Positions 18,108 to 49,065 of a DNA stretch of 51,904 nucleotides are shown in pieces. The notes beneath the pieces were generated by a model that made no database searches, was not told the origin of the DNA, and saw only the letters and a list, made by a program, of their open reading frames with translations. The position numbers were made by a program, and so were the translations under genes. Position 1 is the first letter of the stretch. Each line of letters opens with the position of its first letter. This DNA comes from Gammaproteobacteria bacterium (lineage in GTDB: Bacteria > Pseudomonadota > Gammaproteobacteria > Steroidobacterales > JABDKV01). Where the stretch lies: NCBI GenBank assembly GCA_013003425.1, contig JABDJB010000111.1, positions 1-51,904 on the forward strand. The letters run 5' to 3'.

Positions 18108-18197
18108 GGAGAGGTGGCAGAGCGGTTGAATGCACTGGTCTTGAAAACCAGCAAGGGCTAGCGCCCTTCGAGGGTTCGAATCCCTCCCTCTCCGCCA
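18108..18197 (+). tRNA. tRNA-Ser, anticodon UGA
   Basis: A 90-nt class II tRNA. The acceptor stem GGAGAGG pairs with CCTCTCC, then G and an encoded CCA. The anticodon loop CTTGAAA sits between ACTGG and CCAGC arms, giving anticodon TGA. A long variable arm (AGGGCTAGCGCCCTT) is characteristic of Ser tRNAs, and the T arm GAGGGTTCGAATCCCTC is intact. It lies 2.6 kb from the end of serS, which encodes its synthetase. Confidence 0.97.
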
Positions 18198-18436
18198 CTC
18201 TTGCATATGAAACGGGCCCATCTGCGGCCCGTGTCTTATGCAACAACGGAGAGATTCGGAGCCTCCAACTCTAGACAACCCGGGTTCGGGCCGAGGCCGG
18301 CCCGGGCCGGCCGCGACAACGCGGGAGCGCAGCGACCGCGGCCCTCTGGGGTCCGGCCCGGCAGAGCCGGGCGTTCGCGGGCAAAATCGACACGGTAGTT
18401 CGATTTTGCTCCCGCTCACCCCTCCCTCTGCGCCAC
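18198..18436. other. GC-rich spacer bounded by a partial copy of the tRNA-Ser 3' end
   Basis: At 18420-18436 the sequence repeats the last bases of tRNA-Ser with one change (CCCTCCCTCTGCGCCAC against CCCTCCCTCTCCGCCAC), 238 bp away. Between them are an ACGGGCC/GGCCCGT hairpin (18212-18232, possibly the tRNA terminator, with no T-tract) and a 10-bp perfect stem GCAAAATCGA...TCGATTTTGC (18391-18419). No gene is present. The layout resembles a small integration or duplication footprint at a tRNA 3' end. Confidence 0.55.
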
Positions 18437-18494
18437 TTTCCGCAACAACGTTACCCGGCTTTTATTGTCATAAGCGCCCCGATACACTGCGCGC

Positions 18495-42145: not shown

Positions 42146-45100
42146 CTAACGAAAGTTGCGCGAGCGTGCCGGCAGTGCACCCAGCAGGTGACTGTCATCA
42201 GCCAGCGCATGCGCGACGACATGCATCACATCGCCCTGCTTCTGCAACTTCCCGTGCACGGTCAGCAGACGCGAACCAAGCAGCACCCGCCGCTGCCGTT
42301 CGGCAGTACGCTCCCAGACGATGAGGTTAACGTGGCCGGTTTCGTCTTCCAGCGTGACAAAGGTCACGCCTTTGGCCGTGCCCGGACGCTGCCGTGTAAT
42401 CACCAGCCCGGCCGTGCTCACGCTGGCTCCGTCAGGCAGTTCCCACAGCCGCTGTGCGCTGCTGATGTTTTTCTCATCCAGCTGTGCACGCAGAAAACCC
42501 ATCGGGTGACGCCCCAGGGTCAGCCCGGTGCTCTGGTAATCGGCCACTACATCTTCGCCTTCGGTGGGCCGTCGCAGCATTGGCTCACCTTCGCGGATTT
42601 TTATCTCCGGCAGCAGCGGCAGCGGCGCTTCCACCCCGGCAACATCCCAGCGCGCGCGGTGACGGTTACCGGTCAGGGTACGCAGGGCGCCGGCGGCCGC
42701 AACGGCCTCGAGATCGCCGCGATCAAGTTGTGCCCGCGTTGCCAGGTCCTGCACGTCGGCAAATGCCTGCGCGCCGCGGGCGGCCACCAGCCGCTCGCAG
42801 CCGGCCGCGGAAAAGCCCTTGACCAGGCGCAACCCCAGGCGAATGACCGGCTCCCCGTCGGCACCGCGCTCCAGCGAGCAGTCCCGGTCGCTGTACAACA
42901 CGTCGGCCGGCCGCACCTTCACCCCATGACGCTGCGCATCCTGGATCAGCTGCGAAGGCGCATAAAAACCCATCGGCTGGCTGTTTATCAGCGCGCACGC
43001 AAACACTGCCGGCTCATGACACTTGAGCCAGGCAGAAACATAGACCAGCAATGCAAAACTTGCAGAATGCGATTCGGGAAAACCGTATTCGCCAAAGCCC
43101 TGGATCTGGCGAAAAATCTGGTCGGCAAACTGCTCGGTGTAACCGCGTTCGCGCATGCCGTTTTTCAGCCGCTGCTCGAACGGTCCCAGCCCGCCACGCC
43201 GCTTCCACGCCGCCATGGCGCGGCGCAGCTGGTCAGCCTCGCCCGGCGTGAATCCCGCCGCGACAATAGCCAGCTGCATCACCTGCTCCTGGAAAATGGG
43301 TACACCCAGCGTGCGTGACAACACATCACGCACCGCCTCGCTGGGAAATGTCACCGGCTCTTCGCCGCTGCGCCGACGCAGGTATGGATGGACCATGTCA
43401 CCCTGGATCGGGCCGGGCCGTACGATCGCAACTTCGATAACCAGGTCGTAATAGCAGCGCGGCTTCAGGCGCGGCAGCATGGCCATCTGCGCCCGTGACT
43501 CGATCTGGAATACACCCGTGGTATCGCCCTTGCAGATCATGTCGTAGACCACCGGGTCTTCCGCCGGCACCGTGGCCAGGCTCAGCCTGCGGCCGTAAAA
43601 ACCTTCAATAAACTCAAAGCTGCGGCGAATGGCGCTGAGCATCCCCAGGCCCAGCACGTCGACTTTCAGCAGTCCGAGCGCATCGAGATCGTCCTTGTCC
43701 CACTGGATCACGGTGCGATCCGGCATCGATGCGTTCTCTACCGGCACCAGCCGTGCCAGCGGCCCGCGCGAAATCACAAAACCGCCAACATGCTGTGACA
43801 GGTGGCGCGGAAAACCCATCACGGTACGCGCCAGCGTCAGCACCCGGTGCACCACGGGACTGGCCGGATCAAAGCCGGCTTCGCGCACCCGCTCGTCCTG
43901 GACCTCCCCTTCCCACCAGCTCAGGTTCCGTGCCAGCCGGTCGACCTGCAGCGCATCCAGCCCCAGTGCCTTGCCGACATCGCGGATTGCGCTGCGCGCG
44001 CGGTAGCTGATAACCGTGGCAGTCAGCGCGGCGCGGTCGCGGCCATACTTTTCGTAGATGTGCTGGATCACCTCTTCACGTCGCTCGTGCTCGAAATCGA
44101 CATCGATATCCGGCGGCTCGTTGCGCTCACGTGAAATGAACCGTTCAAACAACATCGACATGCGCGCCGGATCAACTTCGGTGATCCCGAGGCAGAAACA
44201 CACCGCCGAATTAGCCGCTGAACCGCGGCCCTGGCACAGGATGCCGCGGCCGCGGGCAAACTCGACGATCTCGTGCACGGTAAGAAAATACTGCTCGTAC
44301 TTTAATTCGGCGATCAGTTCGAGTTCGTGCTCGACCATGTTGCGCACCTTGTCGCTGACACCCCCCGGCCAGCGCTTTTGCATACCGGCTTCGGTCAGCC
44401 TGCGCAGGTGGCTGGCCGGGGTTTCGCCGGCCGGCACCAGCTCGCGCGGATACTCGTAGCGCAGCTCTTCCAGCGAAAAGCTGCATTGCTTCGCCATATG
44501 TACCGTTGCGGCCAACAACGCGGGCGGATAAATCCTGGCCAGCGTCTCGCGTGGCCGCAGATGACGCTCACCGTTGGGAAACAGCCACGGCACTGCTGCA
44601 GCAACCGTGCTGCGCAGGCGTATAGAGCTGACGGTGTCCTGCAGAGCACGGCGACCACGTACATGCATGTGCACATCGCCACAGGCGACCAGCGGAATGT
44701 TCAGCGCCAGGCTCACTGCCTGCAGGGTGGCCAGGCGCGCGGCATCATCGCTGCCGGCCAGCAGCTCCACACCAATCGACAGCCGGCTGCCAAACACCCC
44801 GCGTAACCAGTTGCCCTCGGCTTCGACGGGTTGTGTGCCCGGCAGCCAGATCGCCAGGCAGTCAGCCACGCCACCGGCCAGGTCAGCGCGATACAGCTGG
44901 TACTGGCCTTTCGGCGCGGCGCGACGTGCCTGCGTGATCAACTCGCACAGATTGCCGTAACCGTTGCGGTTAGTCGCCAGCAACACCAGGTGGATGCCCT
45001 CCTCCAGCCGGAACTCGCTGCCGATAATCAGCTGCACGTCGAGTTCGCGCGCAGCCACATGTGCGCGCACGACACCCGCTACGGAACATTCATCGGTGAT

Positions 45101-45223
45101 GGCTATGGCGCAATAACCGAGCTTGTCAGCCTGCGCCACCAGCTCTTCGGGCTGCGACGCACCACGCAGGAAACTGAAACTGCTGACGCAATGCAGCTCT
45201 GCGTATTCACTGATCAGGTTCAC
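42146..45223 (-). CDS. dnaE2: Error-prone DNA polymerase DnaE2 (ImuC)
   Basis: 1025 residues, GTG start. An N-terminal PHP domain ([20 protein letters not shown]), the C-family polymerase core with [17 protein letters not shown] and [16 protein letters not shown] carrying the catalytic acids, and a C-terminal OB fold ([18 protein letters not shown]). Length and lexA-imuA-imuB context fit DnaE2 rather than replicative DnaE1. It does damage-induced translesion synthesis with ImuA and ImuB. It is separated from imuB by an unusual 240 bp. Confidence 0.95.
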
Positions 45224-45439
45224 TGGTGATCAGCGCTGTTCCCGGCCGGCGTCGTGCAGCGGAGGCAGGAACGCAAAGAGCGGCGGCGGCCGGATTTGAG
45301 TGAGGCAGGGTGAGCGACGGTTTGCGCGGTAGCGCGAAGCCCGGGCACCGCTCGGGCAGGAGCGAACGTCGCCCGGCTGCCACCCGAGCGGCCGGGCCGG
45401 CCGAACAACATCAAGCCGGTGAGAATACGCTGATCACCA
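45224..45439. mobile_element. Possible 216-bp non-coding insertion with 12-bp terminal inverted repeats
   Basis: TGGTGATCAGCG (45224-45235) and its exact complement CGCTGATCACCA (45428-45439) bound a very GC-rich, non-coding stretch between imuB and dnaE2, which are usually nearly adjacent. An internal stem (CCGCTCGGGCAG against CTGCCACCCGAGCGG) is present. The layout is MITE-like, but no target-site duplication is evident, so the mobile nature is a guess. Confidence 0.4.
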
Positions 45440-45463
45440 CTACCGGTTTGTCCGGACGGGCAA

Positions 45464-46990
45464 CTAACCGAAATAGCCATGCAGGTACCAGTCATGCGGC
45501 GCGCGGCGCTCGCGGTAAATCCACAGCCGCCACCCGCGTGTGTCACGCGCGATGTAGTAATCGCGAGTGACATCGTCACCATCCCACCAGCCGGTCTCAA
45601 TGCGTTCGGGACCGCTTTCACGCAGCAGCATGCCGTCGTACTCGGGCCGGCCCCCTGTCGTCTGCAGGCGTTGTGGCTGCGGCAACAGCCACAACGGGCG
45701 TTCTGCGGCCGGTTCATGATCCGACACCGACGCAGCATCCGGGCCAACCGGTTCCTCCCGGCGCCAGGACAGCTCGGGACGATAGTCAGCAACGCCGCTG
45801 ACACGGTAGATCGCTGTCACACCCAGGCGGGTACGCAGGTTTTCCAGCAGGTCGGAACGGTCGGTTGTATTGCCGGCCTGTGCAAACAGGCTGCGTTCAC
45901 GACAGGCCAGCGTGGTTATGCTGCCACTGGCAAGCGTTACCGCGATGACCGGCGCCGTTAACGCCAGCTCATCGAGCTTCAGCTGCACCAGCGTGAGCAT
46001 GCGCCGGGCATCCTGGCTGTACTCGAGCAGGCCGACCTGCACGCGCGTCGCCGGCTGGTCAGCGTGCAGTAACTCGAAAGCAATTTTCTGCACCCCGGCC
46101 TGGCGTGCAACCAGGTAATTACCAAGTTGGTCCAGCAGCTTTTGTGCCGCAATAAAAACCTGCCCGGTGTCGCTGGTCTCCGCCGGCATCTCGACCGTGC
46201 CGGTAAAGGCCGGTGGCGCGCTGTATGACGGCCGCGGATCAGGCAGGCGTCCCAGCGCGCGATCCAGTTCAGCCAGGTAACGCCGGCCGAAGCGGCGGGC
46301 AAAACCGTCACGCGGCAATCGCAGACAGTCACGCACCGTATAAATACCCATGCCACGCAATGCTCGCCGGGTTTTTTCCGGCCACTGCAGGCAGCGCAGC
46401 GGCAGCTTGCCCAGCTGACCGGCCAATGCCTGCGGCCCGGTCAATATGACCTGTTGTTCCAGCTGCGCAAACCATTGTGCTGCCAGCGGCGTTGGCGTTA
46501 TTGCCAGCCGTGCTTCATGCCCGATTTCAGCACCAACCCGGGCGCAAAGTTTTTCCGCGCCACCGAAAAGCCGCAGGCTGCCGCGCACTTCCAGCAGCAG
46601 GTCGGCCGGCGGGTTGATGTTGACCCAGGGAGTAAAGCGCGCCGCCCACCCTGCCAGTTTTTCCAGCCGGGCCTTTTCGCGGCGCAGGTCGCGTGACCGC
46701 GCGTTTAACTCCGGGCACAGCGCATAAGCGGCATTGAGACCGAGACCCGGCTGAATACCCCATTGACGTGCAGCGGTACTGGCGGCGTGTACGATGCTGC
46801 GGCTGCCCTCGCCGTCGACGACTACCACCGGGCCGGTATCTGCCGGCAGCACCTCGAGCGCAAGACATGGCAGGTGAATAGCCAGCCACAGGTGCGGAAA
46901 CTGCGGCGTGTTAAGCGCAGCCGGCGGTGAATTTTTTTTCGTCGCAGGCAGCGCGGCGAACAGCCCGAACGTGGTGCCCGGTGCCGCCAT
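45464..46990 (-). CDS. imuB: ImuB, Y-family polymerase-like mutagenesis protein
   Basis: 508 residues. Y-family fold (WLAIHLPCLALEVL, VVVVDGEGSRSIVHAAS, LRGMGIYTVRDCLRLPRDGF). The active-site acids of true Y polymerases are absent (LLEVRGSLRLFGG where the second motif should be), as expected for ImuB. The C-terminal part, including RPLWLLPQPQRL, is probably the clamp and partner binding region. It serves as the hub joining ImuA, DnaE2 and the sliding clamp. It starts 3 bp after imuA. Confidence 0.93.
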   Translation of the reverse strand: MAAPGTTFGLFAALPATKKNSPPAALNTPQFPHLWLAIHLPCLALEVLPADTGPVVVVDGEGSRSIVHAASTAARQWGIQPGLGLNAAYALCPELNARSRDLRREKARLEKLAGWAARFTPWVNINPPADLLLEVRGSLRLFGGAEKLCARVGAEIGHEARLAITPTPLAAQWFAQLEQQVILTGPQALAGQLGKLPLRCLQWPEKTRRALRGMGIYTVRDCLRLPRDGFARRFGRRYLAELDRALGRLPDPRPSYSAPPAFTGTVEMPAETSDTGQVFIAAQKLLDQLGNYLVARQAGVQKIAFELLHADQPATRVQVGLLEYSQDARRMLTLVQLKLDELALTAPVIAVTLASGSITTLACRERSLFAQAGNTTDRSDLLENLRTRLGVTAIYRVSGVADYRPELSWRREEPVGPDAASVSDHEPAAERPLWLLPQPQRLQTTGGRPEYDGMLLRESGPERIETGWWDGDDVTRDYYIARDTRGWRLWIYRERRAPHDWYLHGYFG

Positions 46991-46993
46991 TAC

Positions 46994-47674
46994 TCAGACG
47001 CCGTCGCGTATCCGGCCGGCTGCCTCGCGGGTAAGCGCTGCGCCCAGTGATAATTGAACTTTGCCGGGCCGGCCACCACGTGCTTTGAGCACATCTATAT
47101 CCAGCCCGGCCGGAGTTTGGCGCAGCAGCATACGCACGGCCGCCGGCGACGGGTTATCCAGCACATCGACCGGGCGAAATATCACACCAAAAGTGCCGCC
47201 CTCGCTGGCGGCAAGCTGCAGCCGTCGCAACGCGGCAACCGGTGCACTGGCTGTCCACGACAACACCGCCGCACAGTTACCGGAACGCAGGGACTGTTCG
47301 GTAGCCCACAGGATCTCTTCGGTGGTCTCGGCACGCACGATGAGCAAACGCGCCAGGTCGATACCGGCGGCTGACAGTGCCGGCGCGTACGGCACCCACG
47401 GCGGTGCTACCCAGATCAGGCAACGGTCGTCGTCGTTCTGATTGAGCTTTACCAGTGCCGGCAGCAGCAGCCGCAACTCACCCTGGCCGCGACGTTCGAG
47501 CAACAGTTCGTTCAGCGCACTGGCCGGCCAGCCACCACCGGGTAAAAGCTTATCCAGCCCGTCATGGCCCGTGGGAATGATGGCCGTCTTGTCGTTGTTG
47601 TCACAAGCACGCCAGATATCCGGGTGATGCAGCAGCTCGTACAGCGGTTGTTTTTGTTGTTGCGATTGCCCCAT
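46994..47674 (-). CDS. imuA: ImuA, translesion synthesis-associated RecA/SulA-like protein
   Basis: 226 residues with the ImuA opening LHHPDIWRACD, then a RecA-like core (IPTGHDGLDKLLPGGGWPAS, LRLLLPAL, LIWVAPPWVPYAPAL) without a canonical Walker A. Part of the lexA-imuA-imuB-dnaE2 operon. The ribosome binding site is weak, and a 49-bp hairpin ends 11 bases before the ATG. Confidence 0.92.
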   Translation of the reverse strand: MGQSQQQKQPLYELLHHPDIWRACDNNDKTAIIPTGHDGLDKLLPGGGWPASALNELLLERRGQGELRLLLPALVKLNQNDDDRCLIWVAPPWVPYAPALSAAGIDLARLLIVRAETTEEILWATEQSLRSGNCAAVLSWTASAPVAALRRLQLAASEGGTFGVIFRPVDVLDNPSPAAVRMLLRQTPAGLDIDVLKARGGRPGKVQLSLGAALTREAAGRIRDGV

Positions 47675-47742: not shown

Positions 47743-48345
47743 TCATGCGTGTTGCCTGATTACACCTACAACAACACCCTCTATAACCATGGGTTCGTTT
47801 TCGAGATCGACATGGATCGGCTCGAAATCCGGGTTTTCCGGCAGCAGCCATACTTCATGGCCCTTCTGCTTGTAACGCTTGACGGTCACTTCGTCTTCCA
47901 GGCGCGCCACGATGATCTGCCGGTTGCGTATATCCGGCGTGCGATGCACCGCTACCAGGTCGCCGTCGTAAATACCGGCATCACGCATACTCATGCCGTG
48001 CACCTGCAGCAGGTAGTGCGGCTTTTGCGCGAACAGACCGGGATCAAGCCGGAAGTGCGTTTCAATGTGCTGCTGGGCCAGCATCGGCTGCCCGGCGGCA
48101 ACCCGCCCGACCAGCGGTACCCCCGGCTCGACGCCATCGCAGATACGAATGCCGCGGGAAACCCCCGGGATCAGTTCGATAGCGCCCTTCTTCTGCAGCG
48201 CCCGCAGGTGCTCTTCGGCGGCGTTGGCCGACTTGAAGCCCAGCTCGGCGGCGATTTCCGCGCGTGTGGGCGGCATGCCGGTATCATCTATAGCCGCTTG
48301 AATTAAATCAAGAATTTCGGCCTGGCGGTCGGTCAGCTCCTGCAT
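47743..48345 (-). CDS. lexA: LexA SOS repressor
   Basis: 200 residues. The N-terminal winged helix ([29 protein letters not shown]) is followed by the S24 self-cleavage domain: cut site Ala84-Gly85, Ser119 (HGMSMRD) and Lys156 (TVKRY), the same numbering as E. coli LexA. Two SOS boxes precede it, so it represses itself and probably imuA, imuB and dnaE2 downstream. Confidence 0.97.
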
Positions 48346-48356
48346 GTATCACCATA

Positions 48357-48372
48357 CTGTATGTCTGAACAG
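48357..48372 (-). promoter_or_regulatory. SOS box 1 (LexA operator)
   Basis: CTGTATGTCTGAACAG, the CTGT-N8-ACAG LexA consensus, 12 bp upstream of the lexA ATG. Confidence 0.88.
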
Positions 48373-48375
48373 GAC

Positions 48376-48391
48376 CTGTGATTATAAACAG
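48376..48391 (-). promoter_or_regulatory. SOS box 2 (LexA operator)
   Basis: CTGTGATTATAAACAG, a second CTGT-N8-ACAG site 19 bp centre-to-centre from box 1. Tandem spacing like that before E. coli lexA suggests cooperative autorepression. Confidence 0.85.
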
Positions 48392-48470: not shown

Positions 48471-49065
48471 TGCAGATGGAGCAGACATCGCCGGGAGGCG
48501 ATGCTGCTCATCTGCTACTGGCTGGGTAACGTACCGGCATCACCATCGCCCGAGGGCCACCCCGTCGGGGAAAAGGGTGGGTTCACGCCATTCTGCGCGG
48601 TAATAGCTTCGGGGAAGCGCTCCACTGGACCGTTAGAGCTGGCATTGCCAGGGGCAATGCAGCTCAACTGCTACGGACAGTTGAACGTGCCATCTTTTCC
48701 ACCGAACCTGGTCGCAGGTAATTCGCGGCTGGAAGCCGCTCCCACCGCCGGTCCGAAACCTGGTCGCAGGTAATTCGCGGCTGGAAGCCGCTCCCACGAA
48801 GCCGCTCCCACCGCCGGTCCGAAACCTGTTCGCAGGTAATTCGCGGCTGGAAGCCGCTCCCACGAAGCCGCTCCCACGAAGCCGCTCCCACAAAGCCGCC
48901 CCCACCGCCGCTCCTGCAAACAGGCTGAACACGCAGGGTGGCGCTGGTGGCACGTTTTCCAATGAGTAGCAGATGAGCAGCATCGCCTCCGGCGATGTCC
49001 TTAGTGGAACCACCCCAGATAAGCAGCATCGCCTCCGGCGATGTCTGCTCCATCTGCATTATTGG
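48471..49065. repeat. Mixed cluster of two REP families
   Basis: Family A, with core CATCGCC-GG(G)A-GGCGATGCTGCTC, occurs on the plus strand at about 48485, as a diverged copy at about 48640 (CATTGCC...GGCAATG), and inverted at about 48968 and 49026. The outer copies share a long match (AATGCAGATGGAGCAGACAT onward) as an inverted repeat about 590 bp across. Family B, GCGGCTGGAAGCCGCTCCCAC, occurs at about 48725, 48777 and 48843, with extra half-units to 48900. No gene is credible in 48392-49197. Confidence 0.85.

Follow-up and report, generated by a model that had tools for sequence, protein, structure and literature searches.

A block between imuB and dnaE2 in a gammaproteobacterial SOS cassette, explained in large part by a family of small structured repeats

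What separates imuB from dnaE2 in the gammaproteobacterial sequence studied here? In the window, by which we mean the whole stretch of 51,904 nt that was analysed, lexA, imuA, imuB and dnaE2 form an SOS cassette, and a non-coding block of 216 bp lies between imuB and dnaE2, directly before the GTG start codon of dnaE2 on the minus strand. The genes and the ends of the block are as follows.

42146 to 45223, minus strand: dnaE2, error-prone DNA polymerase (PRK05672, 1511 bits)
45224 to 45235, plus strand: left arm of a perfect 12-bp inverted repeat, TGGTGATCAGCG, abutting the dnaE2 start codon (45223, minus strand)
45428 to 45439, plus strand: right arm of the perfect 12-bp inverted repeat, CGCTGATCACCA
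45464 to 46990, minus strand: imuB, Y-family-like (IMS domain PF00817; name from gene context)
46994 to 47674, minus strand: imuA (NF033429, 206.9 bits)
47743 to 48345, minus strand: lexA (TIGR00498, 244.2 bits)
48357 to 48391, plus strand: two perfect CTGT-N8-ACAG words upstream of lexA (48357-48372 and 48376-48391; word search)

A preliminary description of this DNA had reported the terminal repeats, the contact of the left arm with the start codon and an internal stem, and all three are present: the arms are perfectly complementary at a spacing of 192 nt, the GTG stands at 45223, and the stem pairs 45348-45363 with 45376-45391. It had proposed either a small mobile element or a two-arm RNA structure controlling the polymerase. 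More conventional readings can be set aside. LexA control inside the gap was rejected, as the perfect word CTGT-N8-ACAG is absent from the block and from the gap as a whole and two such words stand upstream of lexA. Neither a promoter in the block nor an intrinsic terminator (a stem followed by a T run; none in 44950-45750) was found, and the block was rejected as either. A 194-aa frame running through the block (45220-45804, minus strand) overlaps imuB in another frame and is taken as chance rather than as a hidden gene. TGATCA words occur at 45211, 45227 and 45431 around the dnaE2 start, two in the arms and one in the first dnaE2 codons; the whole window has 22.

The imuB-dnaE2 junction was compared with that in relatives. 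Of 33 loci submitted, 28 were measured, including the window and one duplicate contig, and five were not parsed. Between the imuB stop and a conserved dnaE2 Tyr codon there are 258 nt in the window, whereas 26 relatives have 5-82 nt: 75 and 82 nt in G002 and G003, the congeners measured, and 5-60 nt in the rest. The block is absent from this junction in all 26, and the extra DNA is private to the lineage of the window among the relatives measured. By eye, the gap sequences of the two congeners do not align with that of the window, hence they provide no empty site for this junction.

The arms exceed what chance would give locally. Any perfect 12-bp inverted repeat arose in only 0.45% of 2000 first-order, composition-matched simulations of the intergenic stretch. 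Over the whole window, four perfect 12-bp inverted pairs within 250 nt were counted, where 20 simulations had 0.85 on average; a stretch of 52 kb would therefore often contain one. With aligned flanks of unrelated loci as null (maximum 15), the window arms score 12, which is the 95th percentile. The significance of the arms is modest.

If the arms were transposon ends recognised by a transposase, the 216 bp would have moved as one unit, as a MITE. The perfect terminal repeats and the size of the block would agree with this, and so would its absence from the orthologous site in the 26 relatives. MITEs also have terminal inverted repeats common to several copies and a short target-site duplication outside them, and the block has neither. 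In its own genome a nucleotide search found no second copy of the full 216 bp; the best other matches lie on contigs C51 (66 query nt, 74%, E 7.5e-4) and C41 (50 query nt, 78%, E 0.0014). The arm word has three further exact copies in the genome, every one inside an open frame (by eye, we take these to be ribosomal protein L17, FtsZ and an RnfA-like gene). Next to the arms there is no target duplication, and the sequence reads directly ...GGTTCAC^TGGTGATCAGCG ... CGCTGATCACCA^CTACCGG (here and below a caret marks a junction). In addition, the core described below is delimited separately within the arms, and in other places it is flanked by different ones. The MITE reading is therefore quite improbable.

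The middle of the block gave a different picture. A nucleotide search of 97 related genomes returned several matches to it, adjoining tRNA genes, and a first model built from six sequences, window included, found 25 matches in 16 of the 97 genomes. The covariance model R2 was then based on an alignment of 12 tRNA- or 5S-linked copies, with the window left out and the structure written by hand. R2 matches the window with 69.6 bits and an E value of 7.8e-19 (full model match 45304-45436), and among its three matches in the own genome at E<=1 the window copy is the best. A sequence-only nhmmer profile, which uses no structure, recovers the copy at 3.4e-13. One could still think of a chance assembly of GC-rich palindromic sequence that has no common descent with the other copies, given that the core has a GC content of 0.79 and the window one of 0.60, and that short GC-rich matches are frequent across the order in the nucleotide search. 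Both E values come from models excluding the window, however, and in 357 of the 396 genomes of the order no match reaches E<=0.001, which makes this explanation hardly credible.

In the 12-copy alignment 92.1% of the cells are paired, against 32-40% in slid versions, and changes on both sides are seen in 20 of 33 pairs, against 10.4 in shuffles. Because the structure was drawn on the same 12 sequences, the covariation counts weigh more than the paired percentage. The conserved parts are GGGTGA, a variable stem P2 with one or two hairpins, GAACG, the stem P3 and GGCCGG; in most tRNA-linked copies P3 has GA on both sides. The core measures about 75-130 nt across the family and about 100 nt in the window. 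A known RNA family as the identity of the core was rejected, since Rfam 15 gave for the block only MIR2907 (16.9 bits, E 3.2) and for 20 family loci no match to the core at the gathering score. Hammerhead, HDV and attC readings were dropped after comparison by eye with their motifs. In the literature searched, which covered only a minority of the subscription journals, no title or opening of an abstract describes the family. In the window the parts of the core are:

45304 to 45402, plus strand: diverged copy of the structured repeat core, GGGTGA ... GAACG ... GCGGCCGG (R2 and nhmmer)
45314 to 45318, plus strand: stem P2, 5' strand, with two mismatches to 45359-45363
45321 to 45338, plus strand: hairpin 1 of the core (R2 match and folding)
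45339 to 45357, plus strand: hairpin 2 of the core (R2 match and folding)
45359 to 45363, plus strand: stem P2, 3' strand (R2 match)
45364 to 45368, plus strand: conserved GAACG box (family alignment)
45368 to 45392, plus strand: stem P3, with CC/GA in place of the tandem GA/GA of the family

Both boxes, GGGTGA and GAACG, are present in the window copy, P2 is not intact and the tandem GA of P3 is lost. Because other accepted members also lack an intact P2 or the tandem GA, the window copy can be read, from its sequence, as a decayed member of the family.

Where else does the family occur? The scan of the order gave 60 matches in 39 of the 396 genomes at E<=0.001. At the level of the class 11 of 369 genomes (E<=1e-4) and at the level of the phylum 12 of 398 genomes (E<=1e-5) were positive, the genome of the window included in both cases; nine of the latter lie outside the class. 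All three scans ran with stricter filters, so that weak copies may be missed. An intact tRNA gene within 300/400 nt accompanies 32 of the 60 order matches, in 14 more the left edge carries no more than a fragment of a tRNA 5' end, and 14 have neither, which makes 46 matches with a tRNA gene or a 5'-end fragment; as the R2 training set and this tally start from tRNA-linked copies, detection is biased that way and the shares are not unbiased. Of the 14 with neither, one has a tRNA-like head with one changed letter (G003:C29:24741), another a near-identical head (G235:C76), and a third adjoins a 5S rRNA gene (G077:C13). In other genomes the family occupies hairpin loops, namely the D-loop of tRNA genes or, in antisense, their T-loop, a 5S rRNA gene and hairpins between convergent genes. 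Tandem arrays of two or more units of about 130-195 nt are found by tRNA genes or contig ends (L090, L091, L186, L153).

Comparison of the edges at 39 loci shows in 27 of them a directly repeated stretch of target whose end falls at GG^GTGA or one base from it; the null taken from other loci is inflated for such repeats because the loci have tRNA heads in common. This does not hold for the remaining 12, among them the window block, one locus at a contig edge, the copies linked to hairpins and a number of repeats that are shorter or offset. The left junction is thus usually precise and the right one variable, ranging from the replacement of about 20 nt of loop to the duplication of tens of nt of target, and copies cut short on either side also exist (L104, L133; L105, L109). 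Around a common core the arms differ from locus to locus. In the hairpin-linked copies the inverted-flank scores are 21 (L095), 21.5 (L096) and 32 (L099), compared with 12 in the window and a null maximum of 15; palindromes within duplicated flanks bring four copies linked to tRNA or 5S genes to scores of 14 or more as well.

To look for empty sites, the genes beside the copies were traced to their orthologues in nine genomes of g14, a genus of another bacterial family. At a locus next to an MFS transporter G051 is filled, and G040 has a long hairpin without the core; at a glycosyl hydrolase locus G029 is filled and G060 has the hairpin without the core. Filled and empty sites share their left flank as far as GGAGCAGGG (in G060, GGAGCCGGG) and their right flank from ATGGCGCCTCC onward, and the core takes the place of about 20 nt of the loop. 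Other sequence occupies the MFS-transporter locus in G029, G091, G067, G085, G060, G016 and G074, and the glycosyl hydrolase locus in G067, G051 and G074, where G040 runs into a contig end. At both g14 loci the core was inserted in the loop of a pre-existing hairpin, and because one core stands in two unrelated hairpins, the family both disperses and enters hairpin loops. The earlier idea of a small mobile element is supported for the middle of the block, which belongs to a dispersed family with empty sites elsewhere, and not for the 12-bp repeats as transposon ends. In the folds of the two filled sites (z -5.88 and -7.11) the arms pair beneath the core, and in that of a third copy, L099, they do so too (z -7.46). 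The window block folds in the same manner: its plus strand gives a better fold than 200 of 200 shuffles (z -4.34), in which the 12-bp arms close under the core and both core hairpins form. The minus strand also folds better than all shuffles (z -3.68).

For the window copy, two stretches beside the core, compared with contig C51 of the same genome, are relevant:

45247 to 45309, plus strand: candidate left side of the host hairpin loop; it resembles an intergenic repeat of C51, and the resemblance stops at GAGGCAGG, the core start
45415 to 45433, plus strand: candidate right side of the host hairpin (loop and arm), resembling the part of the C51 repeat that directly follows GAGGCAGG

On the left the similarity stops at GAGGCAGG(G/A)TG, which is the left junction of the core, and the window core starts at GAGGCAGG^GTGA, in agreement with the GG^G junction, weak as the comparison is. 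The right flank is matched as well in 1.2% of 2000 shuffles (p 0.012), and the C51 repeat itself carries imperfect inverted arms (p 0.002). The left flank of 66 nt alone gives E 0.35, compared with E 7.5e-4 for the full block; as an independent repeat, judged on this flank alone, C51 was set aside, and it is used only in combination with where the boundary falls and with the right flank. Singly these signals are weak, but they point in the same direction. As the C51 repeat weakly resembles both flanks of the core, the block is read as a hairpin whose loop contains the core; the window copy being worn, its insertion boundaries rest on this weak similarity. Close to the C51 repeat there is also a one-mismatch copy of the arm word (G000:C51 30202-30213).

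The block is thus probably an intergenic hairpin with locus-specific arms, in the loop of which a small structured repeat was inserted. Its outer part would consist of the 12-bp arms around a loop sequence that is also present, without the core, on C51, and a copy of about 100 nt would have entered this loop at GAGGCAGG^GTGA. We infer for the window copy the same route of arrival as in g14, into an outer hairpin that already existed, with a copying enzyme supplied in trans; neither such an enzyme nor an intermediate was seen. A single mechanism for tRNA- and hairpin-linked copies is an assumption, because the former have target duplications and the latter loop replacement.

Could the block still be a functional RNA that controls dnaE2 in cis, either on the plus strand or as a leader of the minus-strand mRNA? 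The two-arm structure suggested earlier stands as a fold, which is strong on both strands; one arm lies against the start codon, and elsewhere the family structure is kept by covariation. The family structure runs on the plus strand, however, antisense to dnaE2, the block is missing from the junction in the 26 relatives, and the other copies adjoin unrelated genes, mostly tRNA genes. The lack of a promoter or terminator in the block and the decay of the window copy speak in the same sense, and a role in control of dnaE2 is unlikely. The hairpin with an inserted repeat would most likely be a passive insertion with respect to dnaE2, as suggested by the decayed copy and its antisense orientation. 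It would lengthen the imuB-dnaE2 gap and place a stable fold just before the GTG, from which a weaker translational coupling to imuB is predicted.

The window harbours a second copy of the family, beside a tRNA gene:

18108 to 18197, plus strand: tRNA-Ser, anticodon TGA (tRNA search)
18326 to 18425, minus strand: second, single-hairpin family copy (R2, window search; 21.2 bits, E 9.9e-5)
18420 to 18437, minus strand: repeated tRNA-Ser 3' end (AGTGGCGCAGAGGGAGGG), which stops at the start of the second core; its counterpart is at 18182-18199

At the left edge of this copy 18 nt of the tRNA-Ser 3' end are repeated with one mismatch, ending at GG^GTGA. In the genome-wide R2 scan, at the first look of the model, it fell below the threshold, so that its evidence is the window search together with the 18-nt repeat.

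Five contigs of a viral collection carry the motif as well. In three of them the copy starts at the end of a terminase-like gene, to which GGGTGA supplies the stop codon (L158:1922-2047, L159:544-660, L160:8470-8613; the terminase identity is from the library for L158 only), and L157 repeats the arrangement of L158. An autonomous version between two copies on a phage contig was considered and rejected: the interval in L158 contains a terminase gene (PF04466, TIGR01547), that in L159 small unassigned frames. No transposase or reverse transcriptase was recognised among the frames read on the phage contigs, where the library scan covered only the terminase and portal genes of L158. Plasmid records gave no match for L182 (a copy outside the class), L115 (a tRNA-Arg copy) or the window block, and phage records none for the phage-contig copy.

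How does the family compare with known systems? REP hairpins are about 20-40 nt long with a GTAG-type head, and REP/BIME elements go together with a RAYT-type transposase. Like the family, REP/BIME and REPINs are palindromic intergenic repeats in many Proteobacteria; unlike these short GTAG-headed hairpins, the family has a core of about 75-130 nt with GGGTGA and GAACG boxes. Group IIC introns insert next to terminator hairpins, and insertion at hairpins is what they have in common with the family, which is far smaller and in which neither an intron structure nor an ORF was seen. MITEs and other small repeats such as Correia, RUP, RPE and YPAL/RU-2 are, according to the review PMC2229807, likewise shorter than 200 nt, non-coding, dispersed, foldable and mostly intergenic, and YPAL/RU-2 shares with the family internal inverted repeats and a composition that is not A+T-rich. 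The family differs by having no terminal repeats common to its copies, by its pairing of a precise with a variable junction, by its tRNA and hairpin-loop sites and by a covarying multi-stem core. Integrative elements at tRNA genes (PMC9897764) also leave a partial tRNA on one side, an intact one on the other and a direct repeat between; compared with these the family has no genes, is shorter than 200 nt, has its own repeat for each tRNA, 5S or hairpin site and stands in many copies at the tRNA 5' end (D-loop). The RIME of Rhizobium, named in PMC2573895 and in the reference list of PMC2873474, are mosaic intergenic repeats to which the family may be related; the family copies outside the class sit in palindromes. 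Three of these copies (L173, L180, L182) start inside a CTTCTCCCCTTGTGGGG palindrome, at GGGG^TGA.

More generally, and only tentatively, one may think of an undescribed, gene-less structured mobile family of Proteobacteria, present on phage contigs too, whose targets are hairpin loops: the D- and T-loops of tRNAs, 5S rRNA, hairpins at gene ends and palindromes. Its junction, GG^GTGA, would be precise on one side and variable on the other; this reading is possible rather than probable. The asymmetry of the junctions would fit copying from RNA or single-stranded DNA, in which a CCC end could pair with the GGG of a nicked loop in a purely hypothetical target-primed synthesis; if so, the family would be a bacterial counterpart of a SINE. 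Should the family hold up, it would be a class of small structured repeats, widespread yet absent from Rfam, which enters the loops of highly constrained bacterial genes with an intact tRNA copy staying beside. Fragments of tRNAs and odd hairpins in the neighbourhood of tRNA genes would then be accounted for. The filled and empty sites are ready test cases for the movement of gene-less repeats. In the window, a puzzling block would become a decayed insertion that lengthens the imuB-dnaE2 gap of an SOS mutagenesis cassette. The block itself is real, and it is explained in large part by this family.

Two further features were noted. In genus g14 very long hairpins with locus-specific arms stand behind genes (L208, L216, L222); two of the three have a loop sequence in common (GCGTTGGAGCNGGG ... 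GAGCCAGGATGGCGCC), and the third has another loop. In the window itself, a GC-rich repetitive stretch lies between lexA and the next gene (48633-49059, minus strand); it is open in more than one frame, with VGAASSRELPA-like translations.
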